DNA of 64,000 nt from Larus michahellis. Lineage: Eukaryota > Chordata > Aves > Charadriiformes > Laridae. This document shows, one piece after another, positions 4,760 through 58,400 of the stretch. The position numbers were made by a program, and so were the translations under genes. Location of the stretch: assembly GCF_964199755.1 (NCBI RefSeq), contig NC_133910.1, forward strand, positions 4,238,501-4,302,500, read 5' to 3'. The notes below the pieces were generated by a model, which was not told the DNA's origin, made no database searches, and was given only the letters and a program-made list of their open reading frames with translations. How positions within the stretch are numbered: position 1 is the first letter of the stretch; every line of letters begins with the position of its first letter.

Positions 4760-5027
4760 CCCCTCCGTGGGTGAGCGCCCACCCCTCCTGCGAGCCCCCC
4801 GCTGCGGGGTCAGGGGACCGGCAGGGCCGGGGGACCGCAGTCCCCCCCCGGGGCTTGTAGAGGGCAGGGGTGGGAGGAGAAAGGTGGCTCGTGTGGATCA
4901 CCATTCCCCTCTGCTGGTCGGGACTGGGATAACTGGTCGCCATCAGCCAGGCCTTGGCAGGGAGACGGGGACGGAGCAGTGCTGCCTGCGGAGGGTGCGA
5001 CAGCCTGGCTGCCCCCACACTGCCACC

Positions 5028-5960
5028 GGCATGGCATGGGCACCGGTATGGCATGGGCACTGGCATGGGCATGGGATACCAGCATGGGCACCAGGATGAG
5101 CACACAGTGTGGGCATGGGCACTGGCATGGCATGGGCACCAGGATGGCATGGCACTGGGAGCGGCATGGGCATGGTCATGGGCACCAGCAGCAGCATGGG
5201 TATGGGGTACTGGCACCAGCATGGGCACCAGGATGAGCACACAATATGGGCACGAGCACCAGCATGGCATGGGCACTGGTAGCAGCATGAACTTGGGCAC
5301 CAGCACCAATATAGACATGGGATGCTGGCACCAGCATGGGCACCAGGATGAGCAATGGGTATGGGCATGGGCACCAGCATGGCATGGGCACCAGCATGGC
5401 ATGGGAACCAGTGTGGCATGGACACTGGCAGCAGCATGAGCTTGGGCACCAGCACCAGTACATGGGATACTGGCACCAGCATGGGCACCAGGATGAGAAG
5501 AGGGTATGGGCATGGGCACCAGTGTGGTCATGGGGTACTGGCACCAGCATGGGCACCAGGATGAGCACAGGGTATGGGCAGGGACGCTGTCAGCAGCATG
5601 GGGAATGGGAACGGGAACGGGCATGCGCATGGACACCGGCATGACATGAGCATGGCAGACAGTCTATCTGCCTCGTGCAATGGCACCAACATGGGCAGAG
5701 GCTGTAGGAACAGGCACTGGCAGTGTCATGGGCAGAGGCAGGGGCATGGGGTACCAGCCCGGCATGGGCACGGGGTACTGGCACCAGCACGGGCCCTGGG
5801 ATGAGCACAGGGCATGGGCATGGGCACCAGCATGGTGGGGGACATGGGAATGGACACCGGCATGGGGCATGTTTGTGGGTACAAGCCATGGGCACAGGAC
5901 ACAAGCATGGGACATGGGACATGGGGATGGGAATGGGAATGGGACACGGGCAATGCCTCC
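5028..5960. repeat. Minisatellite built on GCATGG / GGCACC hexamers
   Basis: About 930 bases made almost only of GCATGG, GGCACC(A), ACTGGC and AGCATG blocks. A larger unit, ctggcaccagcatgggcacc followed by aggatgagca, recurs near 5076, 5210, 5325, 5470, 5535 and, diverged, near 5775, so there is higher-order structure. The hexamer period keeps several frames open on both strands. This produces spurious Met/Pro/His/Gly-rich open frames of up to 452 codons that should not be annotated as genes. Confidence 0.93.
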
Positions 5961-7050: not shown

Positions 7051-9294
7051 CATCCCCCAGCAGGAGGAAGCCTGGGCGGGGGGGGGGGGATGGGTCCCTT
7101 CCCCTGGAGGAGAGGACATCCCCAGGGCTCACCCAGTTTTGCAGACACCCTGCCTGCGCGCCAGCAGCCCCAGGGGATCCAGGGATACGCTCACACTCTC
7201 CCACCGCCATTCTGAGCTCCCAAATGTACCCGGAGGGGGCCCAGTCCCCAGGGGAGGTGGGCAGGACATCAGCAGGAGCTGCTGGTGTTTCCCCCCAAGC
7301 CCCAGCCCCAGCACTCAGGGGCGTGCGGGCCATCCCCGTTTCTCCCAGTTAAACACATTTCCTGCACCTCGACAGTTTTCAACTGAACTTTTTGGGGTTG
7401 AAAAGTTGAAAAGAGCGAGGCCTCCCAGCTCAGAGGCCTTAGGAGAGGACCAGCAAGGAGGGATCAGGATGTGGAAAGCTTCTCCCTCGGTGCCACAGAC
7501 ATCCTCAAACTTGCCTTTCAGGAAAACCAGCTCCAGCCAGCTCCGTCCCATTTCTTGACCCTGGGACCGGTCCCTCGTCTTGCCTCCCAGCTCCCTCCGT
7601 TATTTAGGTGGGGATAAACCCCACGCCAACCGTCGCTACTCTCCACGGAGGTCCCAGCTGCCAGACCCGGCCCCCCCCCGGTTCACATCACTTGGGCCAA
7701 ACCAGCACGGGATGGAGCGGGAGGAGCAGCCACCACCTCTCTCCGTTCACCCTGAGGTTCCTTCTTGGCCCTACGGTGGAAAGAGCCAGGTGAGGAAATG
7801 CTGCTCCCCCTTCCCTTCTCTGTGTGCAGATGTTCCCACCGCCTTCCGCATCCCCCCACCAGGGGGGTCCAGGCTGTTGGGCTCCAGCTCCTCACCCGGA
7901 GCCCCTTGCAGAGGAGGCAGAGGATCCTGGTGGTCTCCAAGGGTCTAAGGCCTGTGGTCAACAACTCATGGTCCCTGCTTGGAGGACCCACCATCCCAAG
8001 GTGTTTCGCGCTCCCAGTAAATGCCTTCCAGTGGGAAGCAGCCTCCAGCCCCAACGCCAGCAGGACCTGGGCTCCCCGTGGGTGGCGGGGCCGAGCCCCC
8101 GCCGCCAGGAGGGCGATGTCAGAGCATCCTTCCCACAAACAGCCCCCTCCCCACCCCACCGTCTACAGGACCCTTCGGTCCCTGCCCTCCCAGCACCTGC
8201 CTCCGGGTCGCGACAGTCCCAGGTTTGGTTGCTTATTTTGCAAATAAAGCAAGTGTCACCCTTTATTTCTTTATTATGTGGTTTTTTTTTTTTTTCCTTC
8301 CAGATGTGAGGGATGCAAGAGAACCACCCGCCTGCCGGGGAGTCAAGTGTCCCCGAGGGCAGGGAGGGGACACACGGCGGGGTCCCGGCTCACCTGCACC
8401 CTCCCTACACGTATTTTTTACGGACAGACAAGCGATGCTCGGCCTCACTGGAAAGATTGACGGGGAGATGGGAAAGCAATATAAATACCTCCCTCTTAAA
8501 TAGCCTGCTGGTATTTATAGCCCGTGGTTGGCAGAGTCCGGCGGCTCTGACAAACTCCACTCCGGCTTATTTTTAAGGAGAAGAGGTTTGAAAGCCAAGG
8601 ATGGAGACGCGTATCTGCCTGGTCGGGGGCTGCAGGGATCCCAGGCGGCCGAGCCCTTGTCACCCCGCCATCCCTCCAGACACTCCTTTGCTGTCCTTTG
8701 TCCCCAGGGACCCCCTGTCCTGCCTCGAGCGACAGGGTGAACACTTATATGGCCATATATATTATATACATATATCTATATATATCCATACCTGCGGGCA
8801 GAGCCCGTCTGGAGCCCGCAGGAGCTCAGGCTCTGCGCCAGCATCGCGCCCTTTCCCACCTCCTTTCCCATTTTTCCCTCTTCACCCCATCGCACCCTGC
8901 CCAGGATTTGGAAAGGGGGGAGCACAGAAACCCCCAAACCCCCTCAGCGCGGCCCTGGGAGCCAGCTCGGGGGGGTGGTGGGGGGTGGGGGGTCGCGGCC
9001 CCAGCATGCCCCCTACACCCCCGGTATGCTCCCTGCACCCCCGGCTGAGAGGAGAAGCCCCCCCCTCCCGCAGCAGCGCCCGGTGCCAGGGTAGCCTTTA
9101 GCCCGAGATTTACAGCCCCGGCCGTGCCCGTCCTGGGTGGGTGGCCACGGGGTGTCTGCGCGGGGTGGGGGGAAATTTGTCTGCGTCCCCTGCATGGGGC
9201 AGGGGGGGCATATTTTGCTGGGAAATAAGCCTGAGACACCATAGGGACACCCCCGCAACGCTGTTCCAGGCATGGCCTCTCGCCACAGGCCGAT
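7051..9294. other. Non-coding DNA upstream of the G-rich array
   Basis: No exon recognised. An AT-rich stretch with short TATA/ATAT blocks lies at 8743-8786. From about 9.0 kb the composition shifts to C/G homopolymers leading into the minisatellite. Confidence 0.45.
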
Positions 9295-10760
9295 GCTGCA
9301 GCCCTGGCGGGGGGGGGCAGGTTTCCTGCAGCCCCATGGTGGTGGTGGGGGGATGCTGGGTGCAGGGGGGATGGTGGATGGTGCAGTCCTGGTGGGGGGG
9401 GGGAAGGTTTCCTACAGTCCCATGGTGGTGGGGGAATGGCAGGTGCAGGGGGGGGGTATGCTGGGTGCTGGGGGGGGGGATGCCAGGTGCGGGAGGGGGG
9501 CTGGTGGATGCTGCAGCCCTGGGGGGGGGGGCAGGTTTCATACAGCCCCATGGGGGGGGTTGCTGGGTGCAGGGGGGTGATGCTGGGCAGGGGGGGGTAT
9601 GTTGGGGGGGGTGTATGTATGCTAGGTGTAGGGGAAGGATATGCTGGGTGCAGAGGGTTGTTGCTGGGTGTGGGGGGGGGTATACTGGGTGTGGGGGCTA
9701 TGATGGGTGCAAGGAGGGTGATGGGTGCCGGGGGGGCATGCTGAGGGGGGGGTATGCTGGGTGCGGAGTGGGGTTGCTGGGTGCGGGAGTGTATGGTGGG
9801 GGGTATGCTGGGTGTAGGGGGAGTGGGGGGGATATGTTGGGGGGGCTATGCTGGGTGCAGGGGTAGTGCAGGGGGATATGCTGGGGGGGCTATGCTAGGT
9901 GTGTGTGGGGGGTGTGCTGGGTGTGGGGGGTATGCTGGGGGGCTATGCTGGGTGCAGGGGGGTATGCTGGGGGGGCTATGCTGGGTGCAGGGGGGGTTGC
10001 TGGGTGCGGGGGGGTATGCTGGGGGGGCTATGCTGGGTGCAGGGGGGTATGCTGGGTGCGGGGGGGTATGCTGGGGGGGCTATGCTGGGTGCAGGGGGGT
10101 ATGCTGGGTGCGGGGGGGTATGCTGGGTGCGGGGGGGTGTGCTGGGGGAGGTATGCTGGGCGCAGGGGGGGTTGCTGGGTACGGGGGGGTATGATGGGAG
10201 GGAGGCTATGCTTGGTGCTGGGGGGGGCTGGCTAGGGGCCCTATGCTGATTGCAGGGGGGGGTGCTGGGTGTGAGGGGGTATGCTGGGTGCAGGGGGGGT
10301 TGCTGGGTGCAGGGGAGGTGTGATGGGGGGGGTATGCTGGATGCAGGGGGGGTTGCTGGGTGCGGGTGGGCATGATGAGGGGGGGCTATGCGGGGTGCAA
10401 GGGGGGGGTATGTTGGGGGGGTTATGCTGGGTTCAGAGGGTGGTTGCTGGGTGCGGGGAGGGGGTGTGCTGGGGGGAGGCTATGCTGGGTGCAGAGGGGT
10501 ATGCTGGGGGGGTATGCTGGTAGGCTGGGTGCGGGGGGGCATGATGGGGGGGGCTATGCGGGGTGCAAGGGCGGGGTATGTTGGGGGGGGTTGTGCTGGG
10601 TTCAGAGGGTGGTTGCTGGGTGCGGGGAGGGGGTGTGCTGGGGGCGGAGGGGTATGCGGGGGGGGGTATGCTGGGTGCAGAGGGAGTATGATGAGAGGGG
10701 GGGTTATGCTGGGTGCCTGGGGGGCTAGCTGGGGGGGCTATGCTGGGTGCAGGGAGGGGG
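9295..10760. repeat. G-rich minisatellite upstream of STXBP1
   Basis: Roughly 1.45 kb of degenerate 18-20-base units of the type tatgctgggtgcagggggg. A higher-order duplication is visible: the block starting near 10361 (gggcatgatgagggggggct) recurs near 10528 with the same downstream order of motifs, giving a period of about 165 bases. The + strand carries dense runs of 5-9 G, so G-quadruplex potential is high. The array ends 10-40 bases before the STXBP1 CpG island. Homopolymers make the exact length unreliable in any assembly. Confidence 0.93.
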
Positions 10761-38377: not shown

Positions 38378-41300
38378 CTGGGAAGAAGAAGGGGACACGG
38401 GCTCGGCTTTGCTCTGCGGACTGTGTCCCCAACAGGGCTCTGTGCCTCCCCTCTGCCTTGTCTTTCATCCCTCTCCAACCCCCAGCACCCATCTCCCCCT
38501 GCTCACCCCGCCTTGCAGACCCCCCCCCAAAAAGGAGCTGGGGGGACCCGCTCCCAGCCATCTGCCACCAGGGTCCCTGGGGTCCATGGACAAACCCGTG
38601 GGTCCCTGGGGTGGGCACAGCCCCTCCTGGGTTCACTCTCCTCCCCTGGGAGATGCTGACACCCCCCCCCCCCAACCCCCGCCGCCCCCCGCAAGCCGCA
38701 GAGCATCCTTACAGCAGGGGGGGTGCATAAGGCACGAGGGGGACGGGCGCAAGGCAGCCGATGGCGGGGGTGGCACCAGGGCTGGCCACCAAGTACCAAA
38801 CTCCAGGTTGCTCCGGCTTCTCGGCGCGGGGACGGACGTGGGAGCTGGGGGGGGATGTGCCACCGGGGCCACGCTCTGCTGTGGGGAGGAAGGTGGTTAG
38901 ATGTCCCTGGGGGGGTTAGATGTCCCCAAGGGGGCGCAGCCCCAGGTTACCCCCCCCAGCCCTGTGCCATGCTGGGCTGCCACCGCCAGTGGGAATACCC
39001 CACGCCCAGGGGTCTGAGGGTTGTTCCCTGTCCCCAAAAGCTGTGCCAAGCACATGCCACCCCTGTCACCCACCGTGTGTGGCTCCGTCCCTGTCACCAG
39101 AAGCGGGGGCACCCGTGGGTGTGTGGCAGGTGGGGCAGCATGTCCTCCTTGGGGTGCTGTGCCGGGGCGGCCTCGTGGCATCCCCTGCCCGGGAGCCGGC
39201 TACGGAGAGAGGAGCGAGGGTGTCTGGGAACATCCCTGCGCAGAGCAAGCCAGGGCAGTTTGGAAAGAGCAGAGAGGTTTGGGGGGGGGCTGAAAAGGGG
39301 AGGGTCTGCAAAAAGGGGAGGCGTCTGCAAAAAGGAGGGGTCTGAAAAAAGGAGGGGGTGTCTGCACGAAGGGGGAATGTCTGCAAAAAGGGGGGTCGGA
39401 AAAAGGGGGGGGTGTCTGTGAAAAGGGGAAGGGTCTGCAACAGGGGGGATCTGAAAAAAGAGGGGGTGTCTGCAAAAAGTGGGGTCTGAACAGGAGGGTC
39501 TGCAACAGGGGGGATCTGCAAAAAAGGTGGGTCTGGAAAGGGGGAGTCTGCAAAAAGGGGGAGGTCTGCAAAAAGTAGGGGGGGGTCTCCAAAAAGGGGC
39601 ATCTGAAAAGGGGGGGGCTCTGCAAAAAGGGGAGGGTCTGCAAAAAGGTGGGGGGCTGAATAGGAGGGTCTGCAACGGGGGGGGTCTGCAAAAAGGGGGT
39701 GGCTTGAAAAGGAGGAGGTCTGCAAAAAGGATAGTCTGGAAAGGGGGTGTCTGCAAGAAAGGGGGGGTCTGCAAAAAGGGGGGGGGTCTGCAAAAGGGAG
39801 GGAGGGAGTCTGCAAAGGAGACGGGGCGGGGGGGGGCGCTCTTCAAAACAAGGAGGTCTGCAAAAAGCGGGGGGTGCTGCAAAGCACTCTGCCTGCATCC
39901 AGCTCAGTTCCAGGCAGGGGACATGAGGGACAGAGGGGACATGAGGGACAGAGGGGACGGGGGGGGGACACAGCGCTGTCGCCCGGGAACGGGGTGGGTT
40001 AAGCATTATCTAAAGGACGGGGCTGGGGACAGGTTCCCGCTGCTCCCAGTGACACCAGTGGCTGCAGCCAGCAGCAGGGAGCTGGGCAGGCACCCCAGGG
40101 AGGGGGGGCTCTGGCCAAGGGGCAGCGGGGACACCCCCGAGCCTCTGTAATTAACGAATTGAAAGTCATTAGCAGGGACGTTAGAGAAGGCCAGAAGGGG
40201 CCGGGGGCTGTTCCCGGGGCCACTCACCCGATGGCGTCCCGTTCCCGTGGCACCGGGGGCATCCCGGGGCTCCTGGCTCTTCTTGGGGTGCTGGGGGGGC
40301 GCGCGGTGTCCCCACCGGGTACCGTGTCCCTGCCAAAACCCAGCGTGAGCGCGGCCGGGGCACGCCGCCACCGGGGATGCCACCCCCCGGCACTGACCGC
40401 CGCTGGCACCCACCTGTGTACTGTCCCCGAAATGTCACCGCACCTGGGGGGTTCCCAGGGCTGTTCCGCAGGGAGGGGGGGGCCCGGGGCCCGGCAGGCG
40501 AGGGGTCCGACTCGGAGGCTGCGGCGGAGGAGACGGATGCGTGGTGGGATCCGGAGGGTCCGTGCCCAAGGTCTGCAGGATCCGGCCACAGGCTGAGCGG
40601 TGCTGGGTCCCCCGGGGCCACCGGGACCTGCCCCGTCCCCGCGGTCCCCCCACTCCGTTCAGGGAGGGGGAAGCGATGTGCAGGGGGGGTGTCCCCACTG
40701 TCCCCTCCGTCCCCACCCCGGCAGGGTCCCACTTACTGAGGTCCAGCGCCGGCCTGTCCCGCGGCAGCGACGCCGACCTCCCCCTCCTCGTGGGTGCGAC
40801 CCTGGGGGTCACCCTGCCCCGCGCCGGGGGGCTCGGCTCCCTGCGGAGGGGACAGAGCCACTGTCACCACCCAGACCCCTCAGTGTCCCCTCAGGCATCC
40901 CCTTGACCCACCGCCCTGGTGCAGACAGGCTGCCAGTCCTGCGCCCCCCCCGCCAAAGCCCAACCTCTCCCAGGTCACAGCAGAAATGGGACAAACTGGG
41001 GGGTGTCCCCAGGCCCATGGGACACAGTGCTGCCACCAAGCAGGGGTGGCTGCTGCCTTCTTCCCCCCCTCCCCGGGGTCCCTCTTGCCACCTACCCGGA
41101 GGGCGCTGTGTCCCTGGGGGACGATGGTCCACTGGCCGCCGGCTGGCTCCTGGCTGGGGGGGTTCGTGGGGCGGCTTTCCCCTCGGGATAGCTGCGGGAG
41201 CGGTGCAGGCTCTCCTCCAGCCGCCGCCGCAGCCGCCACACCTCGTCCCGCAGCGCCCGGATGGCCTGGCTGCCGCAGGACAGATGCCATGGTGAGGGAC

Positions 41301-44300: not shown

Positions 44301-47300
44301 TGTGCCTGCAGCTTGTGGGTCTGTCCCACCAGTGTCCGTGTCAGCTGGGTCCCCGGGCAGCGGCACAGCCCCGGGCAGGTGGGGCAGCCCCCCCCGGGCG
44401 GAGGGGGGGAAGGAGGCTGGAGTGATCCTGCCCGGTCTGGTGGTCCCAGTGCTGGAGCTGTAAGAATCATAGAATGGTTTGGGTTGGAAGGGACCTTAAA
44501 GACCATCCAGTGCCACCCCCTGCCCTGGGCAGGGACACCTCCCACCAGCCCAGGTTGCTCCAAGCCCCGTCCAACCTGGCCTTGAACCCCTCCAGGGATG
44601 GGGCAGCCACAGCTTCTCTGGGCAACCTGGGACAGCGGCTCACCGCCCTCAGGGTGAACAATTTCTTCCTAATACCTCATCTAAATCTCCCCTCTTTCAG
44701 TTTAAAACCAGCACCCCTCGTCCCATGGCTCCCCTCCCTGCTCCAGAGTCCCTCCCCAGCTTTCCTGGAGCCCCTTTAGGGACTGGAAGGGGCTCGAAGG
44801 TCTCCCCGGAGCCTTCTCTTCTCCAGGCTGAACCCCCCCAGCTCTCTCAGCCTGTCCCCACAGCAGAGGGGCTCCAGCCCTCCCAGCGTCATCATGAGAA
44901 ACACAAGAACAAGGTGTCCCCGTGCCTTGGGGGAAGCTGTGGGTTCGGGATTTTGGCTGAACACCCCCCCACATACCGGAGCGGGAGGGTGATGAGCTGG
45001 ATGGGGGAACACGGTTCAACCCACCTGCGCCCGGTGAGGACGGCGGGGCCGGGGCCATGCTGAAAGCGGCCGTCCTGGCCTGCGGGATGCTGAGGGCCAT
45101 CACCCGGCAGCCGGTGCCCACGGTGCCCACCGAGAGGCTGCGGCTGGGCTGCGGCGGGTCGGCGTACAGGCTCACCTGGGGGCGGCGAGAGGGGATTGGG
45201 GGCGCCCACCCTGCACCCCAACCCTGGCACTGCCCACCCTCAACGCCTGCCCCCATGGGGACAGCAGGCAGCCGGAGGGGAAGGCGGGGGGCACAGCTGG
45301 GCACCGGCCCTGCCTCAGTTTCCCCACCCACGCAGCGGTGCAGGGCGGGAGGTGACACGGGGACACGCTTCCGCCCCGCTCTCCTGCCATGTCGGTGACG
45401 TGCCCGGCAGCCACCCCCGCCATTTCGGGGCTGTTTCGGCACAGCGGAGGGGAACCCGCTGAGGGGGGACACTGGCTTTGCAGCAGCCTCACACCCTCCC
45501 CCCCCCTCCCCGGGCTGGGCTTGCTCAACCGCAGCTCCCTGGGAGGAGGAAGAGTGGGGCCGGGGGAGGAAGACGCCCTGAATAACCCTGGGGAGGGGGG
45601 AGCAGAGCGGGGTTTCCCCCCTCCCCAGTACCCACCCTGGCGCCCAGGCGCAGCTGGTCGATGGTGTTCTCGGCCTCGGCGTACTTGGTCAGCAGCTTGT
45701 GGTAGTCGTCCTGCGGGGAGGGGACACGCAGCGGGTGACGGCACCCGGTGTGGGGACGGGGGCTCGGAGGATGCTCGAGGGGAGGGAGGTAAAGGGGGAT
45801 GCAGCACGCAGGGAGGCAGCCCTGTGTGGGGATGACAGGGCTGGGGGCGGGGGGGGGGTGTCCCATGAGTGGGGGACACCGTGGGGTGCAGAAACCCACC
45901 CCCCAAAGCAGCCAGCCAGTCTGGTGCAGATGTGACCCCCGTTTCTCTGCGTGGGGGACAGCCTCCCGCTCCTCCCAGGGGACAGGAGGGCATCCCAGGG
46001 GACAAGCGTCCCGGGGACAATGAACATTGCAGGGGGGTGGCACAAGCTTACTGGGGGGGCACACGAGCATCCCTGCCTTCATCCCTGAGAGCCATCCACA
46101 TCCCTGCCTGGTCCTTCCCTCCTCGCCAGCACCCATGAAGGACCAGCCCCCCATCGGTGACACAGGGCTGGCTCATGGGGCTGGTGACATCTCCATTTCG
46201 CCTCCACCCCCTGGTCCCCCCCAACCCCGGAGACCCTCCCAGTAAGGCCTCTCTGGCTGAACTGGGGGAACTGGGCGTTACCTGGAGCTGCTGCACCAGC
46301 TGGGTGGCTTGCCTGGGGGACCTGAACTCCTGCGGCAGCCCGGTGGCGGTGGGGGGCTGCGGGGGGACGCCCTCCCCGCTGCTCAGCAGCACCTCCCGCA
46401 CGATTTCGGCCGGGGACTTGAAGCCCACGGGGCCACCCGTGGCCCTGGGGCGAGCGGGCAGGGCTCGGCCCCGCGGCGGCCGGTAGCTCTGGTCGAACTT
46501 CACCCGCGCCTCCACCTTGGAGAGGTCGGGCAGGGGGTGGTTGAGCCGCCCCCGGCCGTACTGGGTGCCATCACCCGTGCCGGTGCCCGATCCCGAGGGA
46601 TGTCTCGCCTGCTTCCCACCCGCGTGCCGCTGCCGGGGGCTCCGGGATGGCGATTGATGGCCGGGTTTGGGGGCCGGCACCGCGGGCGCCACTTTCTTGG
46701 GCAGCCGGGACCTGGGGTGCAGCTGGGGCGCAGGGGGGGTCCCGGTGCCCCAGGGCTCCCCGGTGGGTGCCGAGGCAGCGGTGCCGGGGGCAGCCCCAGC
46801 CGGCTGGGGCTCGGGGACAGGCTGGGTGCTGGCGGTGGCATCACGGAGGTCATCGGTGGAGAGGTGCAGCAGGAGGCTCTGGCTCGGGGTCCAGCCCTGC
46901 CCATGCCCCCCTCCGGCATCCCTGGCTGTGTCCCAGCCCCGGTGACGGCGGGACGGGGTGGCAGGGCCAGGGCTGGCGTCCGACAGCCCCGAGGTGTCCC
47001 CACGGTCCGTGCTGCAGCTGCGGGGCTGGCAGAGAGCCCGGCCGTCCTGCGATGGCTCAGGGCTGGCGCTGGACCCCGAGCCCCACCGGCCCTCGTAGGA
47101 GAGCTCGGGGTAGGGGTCCCCATCGCTCTCTGCCCCCCAGGGCCCCTCGTCCCCCCCGGAGCTGCCCCGCTCCTCGTCCTCCTCCGCCGGGTCCCGCCAG
47201 GGGTGCCAGCAACCCTCCTCCGCCGGGGACCCCTCCTCCAGGTCCTCGCCGTCGCCTGCAAAACACCGGCGCTGCGGGGCTGCTGCCAGCCAGCCCGTGC

Positions 47301-47694: not shown

Positions 47695-49817
47695 CTGAGG
47701 CAGAGGGAGGGATGCTCAGTGGGACACAGCGGGCTCTGTTCGAGGTGTCCCTGTCCATCCCTCCCCTCCACTGCCAGGGCTTCCCCTCTCCCCCAGACCC
47801 TGGGGACAAGAGCAGTCCCCCCATGACGGGGGGGTGACATCCTCGGGCCACCCCCCACCCTGTGTCCCACCATCAGCACCACAAAGCCAGAGCTGCTGCA
47901 TCCCCCATGGCCCCCAAGGTCCCTGTGGAAAGGAGCCCCCCAGGGACACCCTAAAAGGCTTTTTGCCCCTGGGGTGGCACCGGGTGACACGCAGACCATG
48001 CTGGCACCCTCTGGACGTCACCCCAGCCAGGCAGCCACAGCCTGGGGACCGTCAGCGGTGCCATCACGGTGCAGGACAGTGCCGGGGGAGGCAGGAGCAC
48101 CCCGAGGCCCCTCTGGCTCTGGGGGGCTGACAGCGAGAGGGATCACAGCAGAGGCCCGGCACACTCATTTCATTGATGACCGCAAAGCAGGAGCTCACCC
48201 TCACCCCTCTCCTCCATGTGCCTGGATTCCCAGAGCCGCAGCGGCAGCTCGAGAGGCGCCGGATGCCGAAAACCCAACCGCAGGGCCGGTAGCAAGAAAG
48301 GCCCACGGGGTTTTCCCAGCAACGTCCCCTCAGCTGGATTTGAGCCCCCGCAACCCAATTTGGGCCACAGGGGGCTGCTGGAGGCGGCAGCTGCCCCGGT
48401 CCCGGTGGCTGGTACCGAGCACCGCGTGGCATCCCCCGCGGCCACCCCGCAGCATCCCCAACCCAACGCCGGAGCACGGAGGAGCAACCAGCCCCACCAG
48501 GGATGCACTCACCCCCTACCAGCATCCCTGCGACATCTCCATCACCGCCACCCCGCTGGGGGTCCCCGAGGCACCATCCCTCCGAGCGCCCCAAAACCTT
48601 CCTGCGCCTGCGGGGCAGCCGGGCTTTTGCAGAAGTAGGAAACGATGCTCGGGGTGCTTCCTGCAACTTTGCAGGCGGCCGCAAATTTTTTAACCCCATC
48701 AGGCCCTGGGCGGCGGGGGCCGAACCTTCCTCCGGCGCCGCTTTTCATCGAAACCTTTATTTTTTTTTAATCCGGTTCGGAGCAAAACGGCGAAGCTAAA
48801 CCAAGGGGGATCCCTGGGACCATCAGCAGCTGCAGCTTCCAAAAGATAGCAGGATGAGGGTCTTCCAGGAGGACGAGCAGCCCCAAAATTCAGCCGCGCG
48901 GCCGCAAAATTCAGCCAGGCAGACCACCCTCCTTGGAAATCCGGGATATGGGCTTTGCCCATATCCCGGATTTCCAAGGGGGGTGGTCTGCCTGATGCCC
49001 ACCCTGAGGTGCTGCTCGCAGCCATAACCAGACACCATGGAGCATCCTGGCACATTTGCTGGCAGGCAATTAATCCAGCTCGTTACCGTGTAATTAGCGG
49101 CACGCGGAAGAGAGTTTCCACGAGCTGCCGGCTGCTAACGAAGCCACGGCAGGATCCGTGCGGTGGGTGTGTTTAGCCGGAGGGTGCCGCTGGCCGGGGG
49201 ATGGCGGTGACGCAAAAGTACGGCACCCAAATGCTCCGGGAAAAGTCCTCTAACCCAGCTCCCAAGTCTCAGATCTGCAAATTCTTTGGCTTAAATCCTG
49301 CTGTTAGTGGGTTTTTTGGGGTTATTTTCTGGTGCCACCCGGCATCAAGCTCCTCGGGCATCATCTTTGCACCGTCATCCTCGCTCCCAGCCCTGCCTGC
49401 ATCCTTAGGGCTTTATGGGCAGGGAACAAACCCCGAACAAACCCCAAAGCGTCCCTTAGGGTGTTGCGAACCTCCCGGGGAGTTTGCAGGAGGTTTTTCC
49501 CCTTACATCAACCAGGAAAATCCACTTTCTGCACCTGGAGATGCTCCACAGCTTCTCCTGCCCCCAGGGAGGATGGGGTTGCCCATGGGATGCTTCCGGC
49601 TCTGTGGCTTCTCAAAGCGGCTAAAGAGCGATTTTGGCTTTAGCCCCTTTCCAAGTGGGGTGTTCCCAGCCCCGTGCCCTGGCCCACAGCCTGGCCTGGA
49701 GAAGCAGCCCACCAAAACGTCCCCCCGGTCCGCCTCGAGCCCCGCAGCATCCCCGAGAGACGAGGAGCCCCAGACACCAGCCCCGGGGGGGTCCCAGCGA
49801 GTGGGTGGTGGTGAAAG
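47695..49817. other. Sequence upstream of the AKNA coding exons
   Basis: Candidate AKNA 5' intron or intergenic DNA. No coding exon recognised. It includes the first hairpin at 48916-48994. Confidence 0.5.
48916..48994. repeat. Near-perfect inverted repeat, 38-bp arms, 3-base loop
   Basis: Arms 48916-48953 and 48957-48994 pair throughout except one T/G position (48930/48980). The loop is ttt. The core reads gatatgggc-ttt-gcccatatc. Confidence 0.97.
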
Positions 49818-50350
49818 GAATCACAGAACCACAGAGTCGCCCAGGTCGGAAGGGACCTTTCGGATCATCGAGTCCAACCATCAACCTAACGCTGACAAAA
49901 CCCGTCACTAACCCATATCTCTGAGCTCTGTGTCTGCCCGTCTGTTAAACACCTCCAGGGACGGTGCCTCAACCCCTTCCCTGGGCAGCCTGTTCCAGCG
50001 CTTAATAACCCTTTCAGTGTGAAAATTTTCCCTGATATCCAATCTAACCACCTAGCGCAACTTGAGGCCGTTTCCCCTTGTCCCATCGCCTGTTCCCTGG
50101 GAGCAGAGACCGACCCCCCCTGGCTACCCCCTCCTTTCAGGGGGTTGTAGAGAGCGAGAAGGTCTTCCCTCAGCCTCCTCTTCTCCAGGCTGAACACCCC
50201 CAGCTCCCTCAGCCGCTCCTCACCAGACTCCTGCTCCAGACCCCTCACCAGCTCCGTTGCCCTTCTCTGGACCCGCTCCAGCACCTCAGTGTCTTTCTTG
50301 GAGTGAGGGGCCCAAGAGGACCCCCCTGTGGCTCCTCTTGTCTGGGGGCA
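49818..50350 (-). mobile_element. CR1 LINE fragment, older-type subfamily
   Basis: The + strand starts ggaatcacagaaccacagag and carries gggacctttcggatcatcga. It differs from the common copies but matches the subfamily of the copy at 56.6-57.0 kb (shared ccctcctttcagggggttgt / its complement). Confidence 0.92.
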
Positions 50351-50646
50351 AAGAGGGTTAAAAACACTTTCTAGGGGGATTTGTCGGATGTCCCCCCGGC
50401 CCTGCCCGAGCGGCAGCGCCCCGGGGTGCAGCAGCCGCAGCCTGCAGGACCCGCTGGCAAATCCAGCCGCGTTCGTTCGTCGCTTGCCCAGAAAGTCCCT
50501 CCACCGACGGTCACAGCAGTAAGAGAGAAAAATCTGGGATTCCACCCCCCCGCCCCGGCCTTTAAATGAGTTGAGAGGCACAGAAAAGCTCGGGAAATGA
50601 TGTGGCTACGTACTCAGGAACCACAAAGCAAACGCAAACAATCCCA

Positions 50647-50728
50647 TATGTGTATAAATATATATATATTATATATAATAATGTATAAATATATATATAT
50701 AGTGTGTGTATATATGTGTGTGTATAAA
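50647..50728. repeat. AT-rich (TA/TG)n microsatellite
   Basis: Runs of atatat and tgtgtgta between aatcccatatgtg and aaatacatattt. Confidence 0.85.
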
Positions 50729-51438
50729 TACATATTTTTTCTTCTTTTTTTTTTTTTTTAAATCTTGCTCTTTGAACGCCAGGATTTTGCAACGGAGTCA
50801 GCGGAGAAAAGGGATGAAAAGAAATTTAAAAGCCTCAGCTAGAAAATGCCTGGAACGCCTGAATTACACTCTGCTGAGACCCCCAGCCCCTTTACCCCCC
50901 CCCCCACCTCTTTGCCTCCTCACCAGGGGGTGTCCCACGTTATGCTTCGGGGTTGGAGGTGTTGGGGTGAGGGAGGGGATGCTCAGGGCGGTGATGAGTG
51001 CTGCCAGGTCTCTGCCTGTCTCCACCCTCAGCTCCTCATCTCTGACACCCCCCCCGCCCTCCCCAGCCACAGCGATCCCATCCCTGTGTCCTCCCACCCC
51101 CCCCCCCCCCCCCCCGCCCACCAAACCCCCGTGGGACAGAGCGGAGGCGGGAGGCTGAGACCGCCCAACTCATCGCACGCGTGTTGAGGCAGAGGAAAAG
51201 CGGCGCAGTGAGGCCCTTTCGGGTTTTATCCGCGGTGACAGCGGAGGAGAGATGCCACATCCCCCCGCCCCGGGGCTCGCTCGGTGACATGGAAGGTGGG
51301 GGGGGGCAGCGGGGCGGGGGGGACACACACGGGGCCGCTGTCGCTCTGCCTTCGCTGCCTCATCGACCCACGAAGATGATGTTCCCCAAGCGATGGGGAG
51401 TTACCCTCCCTGTACCCCAAAATAAAACAGCCATCCTT

Positions 51439-51536
51439 TGCCCGGGAGGGGGGGTTAAAGCCCCCCCTGCGTCCCAGACGGGCACATTCGTGCCCGTCTG
51501 GGACGCAGGGGGGGCTTTAACCCTCCCTCCCGGGCA
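51439..51536. repeat. Near-perfect inverted repeat, 47-bp arms, 4-base loop
   Basis: Arms 51439-51485 and 51490-51536 pair at all but one position (G/T at 51451/51524). The loop is attc. The core reads gacgggcac-attc-gtgcccgtc. Confidence 0.97.
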
Positions 51537-51927
51537 GAGGACAGATATTTTATTTTCCTAAACCTGATGTCCAAGAGGTTTCACCCGCATCCCCCCAGGG
51601 ATCTACACCCCAGCCCCCGCCTCCAGAGCCCTCCCTGCAGCTGGGGACCCCCCCCGCCCCAGAATTTTTTCTTTCAGCTAAAAAGCCCGGCAGCCCAGGG
51701 CTCGGCAGATAAAAATATACCTTTTTTCTGCTCGAGCGTGAAAAAAAACCCCGCAAGCAGGGTCTGAGGTTTCATCCTGGTGGCCAGCAAGGGGCGGGGG
51801 GGGCTCGGGAGGGCTAGTTTTTAGGGGAATGCGGGTCTCTCGCAGCTTCCCCGCTTTCCCCTTCCCCTCTTCGGCTCGTCTTTTCATCCAAACCCCTCGC
51901 AAGATCGGCGCTGCCATCCGAAAACCT

Positions 51928-51930
<3 letters not shown>

Positions 51931-51958
<28 letters not shown>

Positions 51959-52081
51959 GGGGTGGGGGGGTTGTGTGCGTGTGCGCGGTTTGAAGGAGGC
52001 CAGAAGAACAGCCTGGGGCTGAAACTTGGCAAGAGGCTTCTGCACTCCAGGAGGGAGGAATTCCTGGTTTATAAACCCCTT

Positions 52082-52110
<29 letters not shown>
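51931..52110. repeat. Two poly-T tracts about 150 bases apart
   Basis: T-runs of 28 bases each at 51931-51958 and 52083-52110 flank about 124 bases of unique sequence. They could be poly(A) ends of antisense retrocopies or plain slippage. No source gene is recognised in the sequence between or beside them. Confidence 0.8.
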
Positions 52111-52115
<5 letters not shown>

Positions 52116-53199
52116 CCCAGAGAGTCCCATTTCATGAGCGTGAAAGAGGGCAGAGAAGCGGAAACGCTGCTTTCTTGCTTCCCACTATTTCCCATTAAAA
52201 CAAGGGAGAAACCACCATAGCGAGGAAGAGCCCGACAAACCCCTCCTCGTCCTCCGAAAACACACCCCCCTCCTACCAGCGTTCTAAAACCCACCCGTCC
52301 CCCCAGTTCCTCTGCCCGGAGGGGTCACGTCCCCCCTCGCAGGTCCCCCACATGGGCACATCCCCATGGAGAGGTACAGAAACCCCGTGGAAATGGCATC
52401 TCTCCATCACTCGCACCGAAGCGAAGCCCCGCGGAGGGAGAAGGAGCTGCTCCGGTGGCCGCTTTCCTGCCTCCTCCCCGGCACATGAACCCTCCTTCCC
52501 TGGACGCAGGGCCCTGTCCTCCCTGGGGACGGCCTTGTCCCCTTGTCACCGTGCCCCGGAAAGCTGCGCATTTCCACCCCGGGGCTGAACCCCAATGTGC
52601 CGGGGGGAGCCGGGGGCTGCCGATGGCCGTAATGCCGGCCAAGGGCGGCCTTAATCCCCGTCTGGAGAGAGCTGCCACCGCCACCGAGCCGGTGGCACGG
52701 AGATCCCTTATTAGCAGAGGACAGGGAGAGGCGGCGGGGGATGCGGGGGGGCCCTGAGCAAACGGGAACATGTGATGGGGTTAACGAGCAACGGGATGGA
52801 TCCGGGTAAACAGAGCATCCACCGCTATGTTCTCCGGGGAGTCCTTAAAACACGCGTGTCTGGGGCGCTTCGGAGGAGTGCTGGGGAGTGAGGGAAACCT
52901 GCGACCCCCCCCCCCGGCACCCACTGGCTGCAGGGAACTGACTGTAAGGGTGAGCTCACGGCTGCCCTTTAAATAAAACAAGGAACTGAAGTTGAAGGCA
53001 GCCCGCGCAACTTCCTCAGAGCAGCCGCAGGCAGCGGCAGGGCCTCGCGTCCCGCAACCTCCGGGCGAGCCCCGGCCTTGGCTTCGTGTCCCCCTCGGTG
53101 GCCTCGGCCACGCCAGCCTGATGAAACCCTCCTGAAATCCTCTGGCACAAGCCGGAGGATTGATTCGGGCCCGGATGGGGACAAACCGCCGGAATAAGG

Positions 53200-54110
53200 A
53201 AAGTTATGAGAAGTTTCCTCGGGGCGGTGAAGGCGGTGGCGGCGTGGGGTGGCGTGGGGTGGCATGGGACGGCATGGGCAGGACAGGGATTGGCGACAAG
53301 CGACGCAGCGGCGTGTCCCCCACCCTCCCGCAGCATCCCCTCGGCTGCGGGGACCCCAGCGGGGCAGGCATCCCCTCCTCTGCCCCGGGACCCCAACCGG
53401 CTCCCAGCTGCCACCCACAGCCGGGCTCAGCAGCGCCGGGGGGTGCTGCCTGCAGCCCCCGGGATGGGTCCATCCCCGCGGGCCCCCAGCTGCGCATCCA
53501 GCTGTGCATCCAGCGGTGCCCCCGGGGCCCTGTCCCTCCCTCCAGCTGCAGCGGGCGGCTCGCAGGGAGCAGCCGCGCCGCGCTGTCCCCACGCCCTGAG
53601 CCGGCCCCGGACACCGCCCCGGGGCACAGCTTGGGGAGGGGGGACACACCTGTCCCGGGAGCACCGCTGGGGACACACACGCACATCTGTCCCGAGAGCA
53701 CCGCTGCAGGGGACTCCCCGCCCCCCGCACGCAACAGCTGCCCCGCGGCCGCTGCCCACCTGCAAGGAGGGCCCGGCCAGACCCTCTTCGCCCGGCGCTG
53801 GGCGGCCCCGGTCCGCTCCCGATCCTGGTGCTGGTCCCGATCCCGGCCCCGCTCCCGATCCCGATCCCGCTCCCGGCGCCGCTCCCGGCCCGGCCCCGCC
53901 GGACAATAGCGCGCGCCGCCGGCGGCGGGGGGCGGGGCCCGCGCCCTCATTTGCATCCCCGCCGCTTCCCGCCAATCCGCGCGCGCCGCCGCGCCGGGAG
54001 CGGACGGTCGTTAGCATCAAGCCAGCCCTCCCCGCCCTATTCGCATAGCCCGCGGCGGGCGGCCAATCAGAGCCGCGGAGGGTGGTGCTCATTGTCATAA
54101 TTTATGCAGG
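53200..54110 (-). promoter_or_regulatory. AKNA: CpG island; candidate AKNA promoter
   Basis: A compact CpG-dense island with two CCAAT/ATTGG boxes (about 53974 and 54062) and an octamer ATGCAAAT on the - strand (53956-53949). It lies 6 kb upstream of the AKNA coding exons with no other gene between. On the - strand a donor-like tgcag|gtgggc occurs at 53760, so a non-coding first exon ending there could join the acceptor at 47695. An octamer would suit the known lymphoid expression of AKNA. Promoter identity and direction are inferred. Confidence 0.45.
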
Positions 54111-54144
54111 GAAGGCACCCCCTGGTGGGGCGGAACGGGACCGC

Positions 54145-54236
54145 CGGGGCCGGGGCCGGGGCCGGGGCCGGGGCCGGGGCCGGGGCCGGGGCCGGGGCCG
54201 GGGCCGGGGCCGGGGCCGGGGCCGGGGCCGGGGCCG
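54145..54236. repeat. (GGGGCC)n hexanucleotide tract
   Basis: About 15 uninterrupted copies of GGGGCC on the + strand, the same unit as the C9orf72 repeat. It lies at the upstream edge of the CpG island and can form G-quadruplexes. Every frame is open and codes dipeptides (Gly-Ala, Gly-Arg or Pro-Ala, Gly-Pro). Confidence 0.97.
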
Positions 54237-54536
54237 GGAACGGGAACGGGAACGGGAACGGGAACGGGAACGGGATCGGATGGGACGGGGACGGGGACGG
54301 GACGGGATAGGGATAGATCAGGATGGGGACAGATGGGGATGGGGATAGGAATAGATAGGGATGGGGATAGATGGGGATGGGATGGGGATGGGCGTGGGAT
54401 GGGGATGGGGATAGAGATGGGATGGGGATGGGGATAGATGGGGATGGAGACAGGGATGGCGATGGATGGGGATGGAGACGGGGATGGGTGGAGACGGATG
54501 GGGACAGGGATGGATGGGGATGGGATGGGGATGGTG
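54237..54536. repeat. (GGGAAC)n then (GGGGAT/GGGATA)n degenerate repeat
   Basis: Follows the GGGGCC tract directly: about seven GGGAAC units, then GGGGAC and long GGGGAT/AGAT-type units up to about 54536. This looks like stepwise divergence of one hexamer array. Confidence 0.93.
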
Positions 54537-54689
54537 GACCTCCTCTCTGCGGATGGGTCAGTTTTGCCCATGGCCACCGCACCCCTACCTGCCCTGCTGG
54601 TACTGGGGTGCCCCACAGGCATCCCTGCCCCTCATCTCCCTACCCAACCCCCTGCCCCAGCCCCCAGGAAACCCCCACAAACCCATCCT

Positions 54690-55277
54690 TTTTCTAACCT
54701 GATAGATTTATTGAAAAATTAAAAGCACAAGCTCTGTATATATAAATACGACGATGCTGCCAGCAATTTACAAGGCCTCCGGTTGCTCTCTCCGCATCCC
54801 CACCCGTGGCCCATCCCACCTGCCCGGGCACAGGGGCCAGCGCCCAAGGGAGCAGCGACCACCCGAAAACCCCTCCAGCCTGAGCCACGGGCCCACCTTC
54901 CTCTGCGTGTGGCACTCAAATGACAGCGGGGACACCCAGACCTCCGCCACCCTCCCACCCCGCTCCCCAGCGTGGCCGAGGGGGGAGAGGGTGTCCCCAG
55001 AGGGCAGCCCCCCCACCCCAGAGAGGACAGGGATGAAGACTTTAAGGGACGCGCGCTGAGTTCTGCCCGTTCTCAGCCTGCCCTACCCAGGCAGTGAGAG
55101 TCTGCGGTGGGTGGGGGGGACATCTGGGGACGAGATGGGGGTGTCTGTACGTGCAGGGTAGCGCAGTGGGCGAGGGTTCTGCGTGGTGGGATGCTGCTTT
55201 CCCACCTCGGCGCTGCCTTTCATCCCCGTTCGGGTACTCCCCCTCCCAAGCCACGCTCCCAAAACCCAGTCGGGTTC
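54690..55277 (-). other. WHRN: WHRN 3' UTR
   Basis: From the stop codon (55280-55278) to just past the poly(A) signal at 54712-54707, about 590 bases. Nothing else coding is seen. Confidence 0.82.
54707..54712 (-). terminator. WHRN: WHRN polyadenylation signal (AATAAA on - strand)
   Basis: tttatt on the + strand within tagatttattgaaaaat, 0.57 kb past the stop codon; cleavage expected around 54690. Confidence 0.8.
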
Positions 55278-55460
55278 CTAAAGCGCGACGTTGAATTCTG
55301 TGACCAAGAAATCGATGTAGTCCTTTTCCTTCAGCTTAAAGGCTTCAGCGATGATACGGGCGGCTTCCCGATGCTCTTTGCCCCGCAGCCCCGTCCCGTT
55401 CACCTCCAAAATGACGTGGCCCACCTTCAGCTTCCCGCAGTTGTGCGCCGAACCTCCGCG
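55278..55460 (-). CDS. WHRN: WHRN last exon (second half of PDZ3)
   Basis: Sixty codons plus stop tag: [20 protein letters not shown] then [20 protein letters not shown] and the terminus EFNVAL. Acceptor is ctctcccgcag. Confidence 0.97.
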   Translation of the reverse strand, partial: RGGSAHNCGKLKVGHVILEVNGTGLRGKEHREAARIIAEAFKLKEKDYIDFLVTEFNVAL

Positions 55461-58400
55461 CTGCGGGAGAGAGATGGTCAACTCATGGTCCCAACCGCCC
55501 CCCTGGCTCAACCCAGGGATGAAATAACAGGCGGTTTGGGGAAAATGTGAAATGTTTCATTTCCATCGTGTTCACCCTGCCCCGGCGTTCGCCGGGGCAG
55601 GGTGAACACGATGGAAATGAAACATTTCACATTTTGGAAAGAGGGGATGAATTTGGCTTCCCTCCTGCTTGCTCCTGGAGCGCAGCACCAGCTGGGATGG
55701 CCAAGAATAACCAAGGCGCTGTCAGCTCTGTTTTTCTTTTGCTGCAAATCACTTGAATTTTGCCCCAAGTAAACAGCAGAGGAAAGAGTGCGGGGAGACA
55801 GCACCCGAGGGCTCGGTTCCCCAGCTATCATCCACCATTCCCCCTTCCCAACCCTCTTATCTGAGCAGAAAAAGGGACTTTCCAGACATCTGGAGACACC
55901 AGCCAAGCTTTTGGGGCTGCCCAGACTGCCCCCCTCTCCGAAATGTCTGCAGCAAATCCTTGGCTCCCAGGACGTGCTTTGTGGTATGGGATCATCCACG
56001 GGACATGAATGCAATCCTCAGCAACCCCCCCCCCCGGCAGAATGATGCCTCTGATACCCAGGGAGATGCAGGGCTATTGAGGAGGAAAGCACACCTCCAA
56101 AATCCCCCATGGTCTGGCCGTGGTTGAAGGGCTTTCCTGATGTCCAGGGAGGACAAGTATGGGATATGCACTGAATTCTTCCCATTCTCAGCCTGCCCTA
56201 CCTGGATGGTGACGATGCGGGGCAGCGGCTGCCGCGTGTTTGCTCCACCCTCGATGGCGATCCCCAAGGTCGGTGCGCTCTTGGACACTCGGATGAGACA
56301 CGACGTGGGCTCCAGGAGCCCTGGCTGCGGGGAGAGACGGCAGCGGTGCCAAGGGAGGCCGGGCACTGCGCTTCCTCAGCCGGTGCCCCATGGCAGCTTC
56401 CACGGGAGAGGGACAGACACACTGCCTGCAATTCCTCTAACTCCTGACATCCATGGCCATGATCCCAACAGTGTGCAGGTCTGGAAGGGCTTGGGGAGGA
56501 GTGGAGCAGCGCTCCGACTGCCTCCCTACACCCCTAACCGCGCCACCATCAGAAACCTTCCAATTTACTTCTGATGCCTGATGCCACCTTCCAGGTGATG
56601 TGGGACGTTGTGCCCTGCAGATGTCCCCTCGGAGCCAGGAACGCTGCCATGTGCTGAGGGAGCTGGGGGTGTTCAGCCTGGAGAAGAGGAGGCTGAGGGG
56701 AGACCTTCTCGCTCTCTACAACCCCCTGAAAGGAGGGGGCAGCCAGGGGGGGTCGGTCTCTGCTCCCAGGGAACAGGCGATGGGACAAGGGGAAACGGCC
56801 TCAAGTTGCACTAGGCAGTTAGATCGGATATTGGGAAAAATGTCTTCACTGAAAGGGAAATTAAACATTGGAACAGGCTGCCCAGGGAAGTGATGGAATT
56901 GCCATCCCTGGAAGTATTTAAAAGATATATAGATGTAGCGTAGACATGGTTTAGTGGCAGTGCTGCGTTAACGTTTGGACTTGATGATCTTAAAGGTCTC
57001 TTCCACCCTAAACGATTCTATGACTCTATGTCCCAAGCAGCTGCCTGCTGGAGCTGGGAGGGACTGGATTTACTCAGGATGGGGTGAATCAGCCCCTCTC
57101 AGCCGCTCCCGGCTCCCTTCCCCACAGCTCAGCCCACCAACAAGCTGACTCAGCTCATTGAACAAGAGGATAAATAACCCACCAGAGCACACACGAGAGG
57201 CTGCTGCCCACAGGCAGCGGGAGCAGAACCGGCAGATGGCTGGACGAGGCAGCGGGGACCAGCACTGCCCCTTGGCACCCCCGGGTGCCCACCTCCCACC
57301 CACGGCAGCACCTCGAGGCCCCGGGGCACCCAGCCTCACCGGCTTGGAAGCCCCTTCTGCCGCCCCCTCGTTCCTCGTCGCCTCCTTGAGGCTTCGGCTT
57401 TTCCCAGGGACCGGCTGCCGGCTCTTGTCCTTGCCGCTCATCTCCACCTCCCCGATGTCCACCCCGCTGTCCTCGCTGAGGGTCTGCCCGCTGTCCGACA
57501 GCTGGGAGAGCGTGGAGGCTGGGGAGAGACGAGGGCTGTTAGAGGCTGGGCAGCACGGCTCTGCGGCCAGCCGAGCACCCACAGGGCCACCTACCAGAGG
57601 GAGGACATCTCACCCGCTCCCAGGGCTGGGCAGTTCCCTGGGATTTAGACTTAGAGCGGGGTTCCCCAGCGAACCCCGCCTGAAGAGCAGAGTTGGGCCC
57701 AGGGAGGAACAAGCAGCCTCAAACCCATGTCCAGGATCCAACCCAGATCCTGAACTGGGATGGGAGAAGAGGGTGATGAGCTCAGGGATGCTGCTAGATG
57801 CCAGTTTGAGCCAGCCCATACTCAAGACCAGGGTCTGGGAGGAGACGGAGACAGACCCGAGCAAAGAGGAGATGCCAGGAAGAAGCTTCCTCCCCTTGGA
57901 GGACAAAGACTCTGGATGCAGATCGAAACTCTGGCAATGAGTGTCAGGAACAGCAGGACCTGCAGAAAGGGCTGAGGGTCTGGAAAATCACTCTGGGACT
58001 TGGAGTGGGTGAGGAGTTGGGGGTCACACTGCTGGGACCCCTCGGGCGCTCCAGCCCCTCATCCATCACCCCGGCAGTCGGGAACTCATTGCAGTGGGAG
58101 GACAAGAGGTAACAGGCACAAACTTGAGCATGGGAAGTTCCACCTAAACATGAGGAGGAACTTCTTTGCTGTGAGGGTGGCAGAGCCCTGGCACAGGCTG
58201 CCCAGAGAGGTGGGGGAGTCTCCGTCTCTGGAGACATTCCAACCCCGCCTGGACGCGTTCCTGTGCCACCTGCTCTGGGTGACCCTGCTCTGGCCGGGGG
58301 TGGGACTGGGTGATCTCCAGAGGTCCCTGCCAACCCTATGATTCTATGATTGTGCCACAGGAGGGCGACAATGCCACTCGCATCGGGTCGCACGGAGCCC

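Follow-up and report, generated by a model that had tools for sequence, protein, structure and literature searches.

Near-perfect short-loop hairpins on a Larus michahellis contig probably arose by self-primed fold-back

How did three near-perfect hairpins of one design, unrelated in sequence, come to lie within 7 kb of a gull genome? The question is raised by a 64-kb stretch of Larus michahellis DNA, positions 4238501-4302500 of contig C19 (NC_133910.1; 14.45 Mb), in an assembly of 1.4055 Gb and 616 contigs. This whole stretch is called the window, and positions within it are counted from its first letter. The analysis concerns one genome of one bird and uses sequence only. An inverted-repeat scan of the window recovered all three hairpins (h1, h2, and h3) that the initial annotation had described, and the runner-up among short-loop inverted repeats of the window was an 18-bp A/T run, in keeping with the earlier remark that no others had been noticed there. 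Three locally dinucleotide-shuffled windows gave one match in total, with a score of 13, compared with scores of 49, 46, and 35 for the real hairpins. Folded as single-stranded DNA, h1, h2, and h3 reached z values of -14.3, -18.1, and -18.2, respectively, and for each of them 0 of 200 shuffles folded as well.

The left arm of h1 (48916-48953, forward strand) is 38 bp long and is followed by a TTT loop (48954-48956) and an inverted copy on the reverse strand (48957-48994), with one mismatch, T versus C, at base 15 from the outer end. The arms of h3 are 46 bp long and perfectly paired, the left one at 55542-55587 on the forward strand and its inverted copy at 55590-55635 on the reverse strand, separated by a TT loop (55588-55589). 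In h2, the core of the left arm (51434-51485, forward) spans 52 bp and faces the core of the right arm (51490-51541, reverse) across the loop ATTC (51486-51489), with two mismatches. The 47-bp arms originally reported for h2 correspond to the inner part of this core and include one of its two mismatches. Moreover, decayed pairing continues outward in register on both sides, from an outer left extension at 51419-51433 (forward) to an outer right extension at 51542-51556 (reverse), with 11 matches of 15 and a run of nine. Including this part, the pairing of h2 spans 51419-51556 and amounts to 67-bp arms with six mismatches. Such agreement was equalled by 9 of 200,000 random pairs (P = 4.5e-5) and by 0 of 210 in an A/T-rich subset that is too small to judge, and the six mismatches are concentrated toward the outer end (P = 0.014). 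Aligned more loosely, the 40-nt flanks gave P = 0.03 for h2, 0.41 for h1, and 0.76 for h3; among these three hairpins, the flank test found homology past the arms in h2 alone.

The design is common to the three hairpins and the sequence is not, as the initial annotation had held: the best cross-match among h1, h2, and h3 is 8 bp (E = 0.66), and a common motif was rejected on this ground.

The earlier description had also suggested a hotspot in one 7-kb stretch. A scan of 100 kb on each side of the window widens the picture: a fourth hairpin of the same design (h4) lies at positions 4190648-4190740 of the contig, with 45-bp arms, one mismatch, and a GAA loop. Located about 48 kb beyond the window edge and 97 kb from h1, h4 shows that hairpins of this kind also occur beyond the 7 kb. 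It starts 19 bp past a splice donor. The intron, about 319 bp long, separates two exons that match a fibrillar-collagen C-terminal domain (COLFI in Pfam, E = 1.9e-6 and 5.1e-12; positions read off the sequence). The host gene is presumably COL27A1, going by synteny, and h4 occupies one third of its intron. The 100 kb on the opposite side of the window yielded no such hairpin, and eleven samples of 5 kb each, drawn at ten other contigs or places, yielded no short-loop hairpin scoring at least 13. Altogether, the 255 kb scanned outside the window (200 kb of flanks plus the samples) yielded h4 only; at a density of one per 255 kb, the 55 kb of samples are too small to call other chromosomes free of the class.

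Across the four hairpins, the arms measure 38, 52, 46, and 45 bp and the loops 3, 4, 2, and 3 nt (h1 to h4). Arm G+C content is 0.61, 0.71, 0.48, and 0.73 in the same order, and a palindromic AT-rich repeat was rejected as an explanation, with arms of 48-73% G+C. The six bases next to the loop are G+C-rich, at 21 of 24 positions against 94 of 157 in the remaining arm (P = 0.011, post hoc). In all four hairpins, the reverse-complement copy adjoins its source.

In the contiguous 264 kb formed by the window and 100 kb on either side, the hairpins stand apart from everything else of their kind. An ungapped scan scored the four at 34-46, followed by five weak matches of at most 18, and a gapped scan returned the identical four and then four matches of at most 19. 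A search from exact 16-bp seeds with gaps of up to 2 kb, excluding words with fewer than three letters or more than 20 copies, gave ten inverted repeats. Besides the four hairpins, these comprised three pairs (arms 148-470 bp, gaps 1,176-1,930), which fall on inverted copies of a single dispersed repeat, and three G-rich matches whose arms measure 16-19 bp and whose gaps measure 275-1,878. Gaps of 5-274 are absent among these ten, and no short-loop arms of 15-37 bp other than A/T runs were found in the 264 kb. Within this contiguous region, the short-loop hairpins are therefore a discrete class, with arms of 38-52 bp and loops of 2-4.

Each hairpin is also single copy. Genome-wide DNA searches, which score best candidates only, returned for each of h1, h2, h3, and h4 its own locus and no other, and stretches of 701-801 bp around h1 and h3 each matched one genomic place. 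This bears out the initial view that the hairpins are inverted copies of unique local DNA. In addition, an exact search of viral contigs with 24 bases from the h3 arm gave 0 matches. Two further searches said little. A genome search with the Rfam model mir-3116, to which h2 scores 61 bits, gave 0 matches with 64 of 167,111 first-look candidates scored; it missed h2 itself and is thus uninformative about abundance. A covariance model for generic 36-bp hairpins, made with 26 random synthetic examples and run with default filters, gave 0 matches in the five sources holding h1-h4 and was dropped because it was blind to all four known hairpins.

The findings to be explained are thus this anatomy, the narrow range of arms and loops, the single copy, a slight divergence between arms, and no decayed or longer-loop relatives in 264 kb. 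We favor, with some reserve, the reading that h1-h4 are independent, recent germline insertions made by self-primed fold-back (snap-back) template switching. At a break or a stalled fork, a single strand with a free 3' end would fold over 2-4 unpaired bases, and a few G+C-rich bases would act as the seed stem. The folded end would then copy its own strand for about 35-50 nt; once displaced, the extended end would join up again with the original template or with the other end, turning X-A-B into X-A-loop-A'-B. The folding of the end, its seed, and its return, together with the lack of one arm in relatives, are inferred. The intra-strand template switching suggested by the initial annotation is the best fit to loops of 2-4, no common sequence, and single-copy arms, and its insertion step would be of the kind just outlined.

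A direct duplication of 21 bp, 86% identical (48874-48915, forward), ends where the left arm of h1 begins. The chance that a random boundary adjoins such a direct repeat is 0.4% per boundary, the left boundary of h1 alone having been tested, and we take the duplication as a sign of repeated template slips. The notion that the arm mismatches are all of one wobble type was set aside, as its basis is just four cases across three hairpins. A second short tandem duplication near h1, 11 bp and exact, lies at 49424-49445.

Processes that resemble this reading are known. According to the accessible text of two papers on the four-point model of short-range template switches (PMC7954356, PMC8794818), such switches leave an adjacent reverse-complement copy and can make a near-perfect hairpin in a single event, as proposed here. 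The second of these describes perfect hairpins created by template switching in one event (PMC8794818), and the same model includes, as a later step, the conversion of a quasi-palindrome to a palindrome. A study of apes inferred 4,017 short template switches, and in its gold-standard set the copied piece is 12 long at the median and 128 at most (PMC7954356); the arms of 38-52 bp described here therefore fall in the tail. The bird hairpins differ from the ape events both in this length and in having loops of 2-4 only.

Yeast offers two further comparisons, each drawn from the accessible text of the source. In cells without Sae2 or Mre11, the length of fold-back loops has medians of 3 and 4 nt, compared with 36 in cells that have both, and single-strand hairpins with loops of 3-4 nt prime synthesis much as we propose (PMC7467729). 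Those fold-back inversions begin gross rearrangements, whereas in the bird each copy runs for about 45 nt and then gives way to the original sequence. At double-strand breaks in yeast, templated fold-back insertions, in which a self-primed end is captured by the other end, likewise leave an interstitial inverted duplication (PMC11724301). Most of these insertions measure 5-34 bp and the majority fewer than 14, and they differ from the bird hairpins in their seed, an imperfect 10-bp repeat, and in their loop of 41 nt. The hairpins would therefore seem to work like short-loop fold-back template switching, yet to be unusual in size.

Several points weigh against the fold-back reading. The arms of 38-52 bp are far longer than usual template-switch and yeast fold-back copies, and the shorter hairpins that a broad length distribution predicts were not found. 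No clear matching sequence was found at the return points, and the one-armed ancestral state is deduced from a single genome. The age distribution is a further difficulty. Of the 181 pairs in the arm cores, 4 are mismatched (1 of 38 in h1, 2 of 52 in h2, 0 of 46 in h3, and 1 of 45 in h4). For arm divergences of 10%, 15%, and 20%, the gapped scan, run at score 15 on 60 simulated hairpins per setting, recovered 95-98%, 83-98%, and 62-68% of them, respectively, and it found no hairpins of intermediate divergence in the 264 kb. Under constant birth with decay only, about 12 older hairpins would be expected alongside the four young ones. A simple post hoc simulation gives a probability of 0.004 that all four are so young; entering h2 as 6 of 67 raises it to 0.008. 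The absence of decayed hairpins means that something must be added to the fold-back reading, be it quick loss, a recent burst or process, correction of the inner arms, or artefact. The hairpins are either young or quickly lost. Among them, h2 looks older, and its inner part may have been kept, or re-perfected by later arm-to-arm copying; the decayed extension in register and the mismatches toward the outer end are what suggest a trace of correction.

The last of these additions, artefact, deserves separate treatment, as the initial annotation had offered a systematic library artefact in place of a biological cause. Snap-back molecules made during preparation could have entered the consensus, and fold-back in the tube likewise yields self-primed snap-back molecules with near-perfect arms. 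Library preparation does yield chimeric reads with inverted sequence, by the accessible text of PMC10908179, and the missing decayed examples would be explained. However, substitutions between the arms are present in three of the four hairpins (4 in 181 pairs), and h2 carries its decayed outer extension, for which the in-register comparison gives P = 4.5e-5 and the looser flank test just 0.03. Because the arms have diverged, we consider an artefact of library or assembly quite improbable. A snap-back molecule terminates in its copy, whereas single-copy sequence carries on past the copies here, in stretches around h1 and h3 that the genome searches found once each.

Two other readings take the hairpins for elements with a life of their own. 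As intronic microRNA precursors or precursors of hairpin-derived small interfering RNA, they would be functional; h3 and h4 are intronic, and the predicted RNA folding energies are -77.9, -118, -85.4, and -108.7 kcal/mol for h1 to h4. Rfam, however, returned no family at gathering score in the window and only sub-threshold hits for h4. The sub-threshold hits are to unrelated microRNA models, several of them near-equal on both strands, the best being mir-3116 with 61.5 bits against a cut-off of 65, and such hits are expected because any long perfect hairpin gives them. MicroRNA precursors are, moreover, unlike bulge-free stems of 38-52 with loops of 2-4. The inverted-repeat form would also suit tiny palindromic transposons of the miniature inverted-repeat transposable element (MITE) type. 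Against this, each hairpin was found once, h1-h3 are without common ends, and direct repeats in their 40-bp flanks are at chance level (P = 0.46 for h1, 0.99 for h2, and 0.10 for h3). The MITE candidate was rejected for being single copy and for showing no target-site-like direct repeats at h1-h3, which agrees with the earlier judgment that none of the hairpins resembles a transposon. With no Rfam match at the cut-off, searches that return each hairpin's own place only, and no flanking direct repeats, we hold the RNA-gene reading to be very unlikely and the transposon reading to be scarcely credible.

It remains to ask why three of the four lie together. A local hotspot was the other explanation of the initial annotation; in such a case chromatin, replication pausing, transcription, or the like in the AKNA-WHRN region would raise fold-back insertion well above the rest of the genome. 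Three of the four hairpins fall within 6.7 kb, and the probability of a span this short given three is 0.031. That of finding at least three of four in 64 of 319 kb is 0.027, and that of at least three in 64 kb at a rate of one per 255 kb is 0.002. The stretch also contains a pure GGGGCC hexamer run and two 28-T runs, and avian introns have microinversion hotspots at two loci, without stem-loop motifs, in the accessible text of PMC3123225. These P values are uncorrected and are lower bounds, because the window was selected through its cluster. On the other side stand h4, 97 kb away in one direction, and the 100 kb in the other direction with none. G-quadruplex (G4) motifs (20 of 153) and homopolymers of at least 12 (4 of 32) are near the stretch's 10.5% share of the window, and richness in either was rejected as the local cause. 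The cluster is only modestly unusual, with an uncorrected P of about 0.03. The hotspot claim thus keeps a weak statistical footing, with h4 lying outside it and neither kind of motif clearly enriched, and we regard a hotspot as unlikely. Under the fold-back reading, chance accounts in part for the close spacing of h1-h3, whose class is also present elsewhere on the same chromosome-sized contig.

Taking neutral change at 2-3 per 10^9 per year, the hairpins would have ages of up to some 8-10 million years, as a rough estimate. One hairpin per 255 kb would then correspond, equally roughly, to about 0.4-0.5 per Mb per million years, near the 0.25 of avian microinversions, and counting four per 264 kb would give a rate several times higher. 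The value for avian intron microinversions, about 0.25 per Mb per million years, applies outside hotspots in the accessible text of PMC3123225. These microinversions are comparable in being short inverted changes in bird introns with hotspot loci; they differ in replacing sequence in place, whereas h1-h4 add an inverted copy beside the source.

A bolder proposal, which we put forward as doubtful, is that the hairpins belong to a discrete class of the bird germline, with a snap-back reach of about 45 nt, loops of 2-4 nt, and several fresh hairpins per Mb, whose erasure is fast enough to leave just the perfect ones in view. If true, a near-fixed reach would suggest that an enzyme sets the limit, for example through flap length, the length of exposed single strand, or one polymerase step, and would speak against random switching. 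A class of such narrow size could be counted in long-read bird genomes, where it may report on germline snap-back frequency, on the speed of removal, and on the loop sizes that escape hairpin-cutting nucleases. If the whole assembly shows hairpins only here, the AKNA-WHRN region would become a testable hotspot. Perfect hairpins made in one step have also been proposed as raw material for new RNA hairpin genes, and they are fragile sites. Among the papers listed in literature searches, judged by titles and the starts of abstracts, none concerns this hairpin class in birds. One bird assembly paper mentions inverted repeats in GC-rich genes in its accessible text (PMC6792250), and the accessible text of another contains no mention of inverted repeats, hairpins, or palindromes (PMC7757076). 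In a tree-of-life survey of perfect inverted repeats, the words 'bird' and 'Aves' are absent from the accessible main text (PMC13155455).

The 7-kb stretch had been called non-coding, which is not wholly so because it contains the last coding exon of whirlin (WHRN). This exon lies on the reverse strand at about 55278-55460 (coordinates read from the sequence) and matches the third PDZ domain of whirlin (Protein Data Bank, E = 1.9e-30) as well as Pfam PDZ. The preceding WHRN exon, also on the reverse strand, is at 56202-56324 (whirlin match, E = 4e-16). The intron of about 741 bp between these last two coding exons holds h3, which starts 81 bp upstream of the splice acceptor of the last exon. 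Downstream of WHRN lie h1 and h2, probably in the 5' part of AKNA. Long reverse-strand frames at 45.5-47.5 kb, which we take to belong to AKNA from the look of the sequence and from synteny, matched no family in Pfam. Around the last WHRN exon, a 35-bp direct duplication, 89% identical, repeats the sequence at the splice donor of the penultimate exon (56168-56202) downstream of the last coding exon (55053-55087).

Other repeats in the region are of several kinds. The GGGGCC array at 54143-54238 consists of 16 units of 6 bp, 15 of them uninterrupted in one frame, and adjoins a G+C-rich, promoter-like stretch; GGGGCC is the motif of the C9orf72 repeat expansions. The two runs of exactly 28 T, at 51931-51958 and 52083-52110, are 124 bp apart and are the longest homopolymers in the window. 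A dispersed repeat of about 400 bp is present at 44481-45070 of the window and in 26 further matches in the 264 kb, the eight longest of which (at least 400 bp) are 91-96% identical. It partly shares sequence with an element at 49816-50340 that we take to resemble CR1. Long degenerate G-rich minisatellite arrays occupy 5024-5603, 9292-10754, and 39282-39820.

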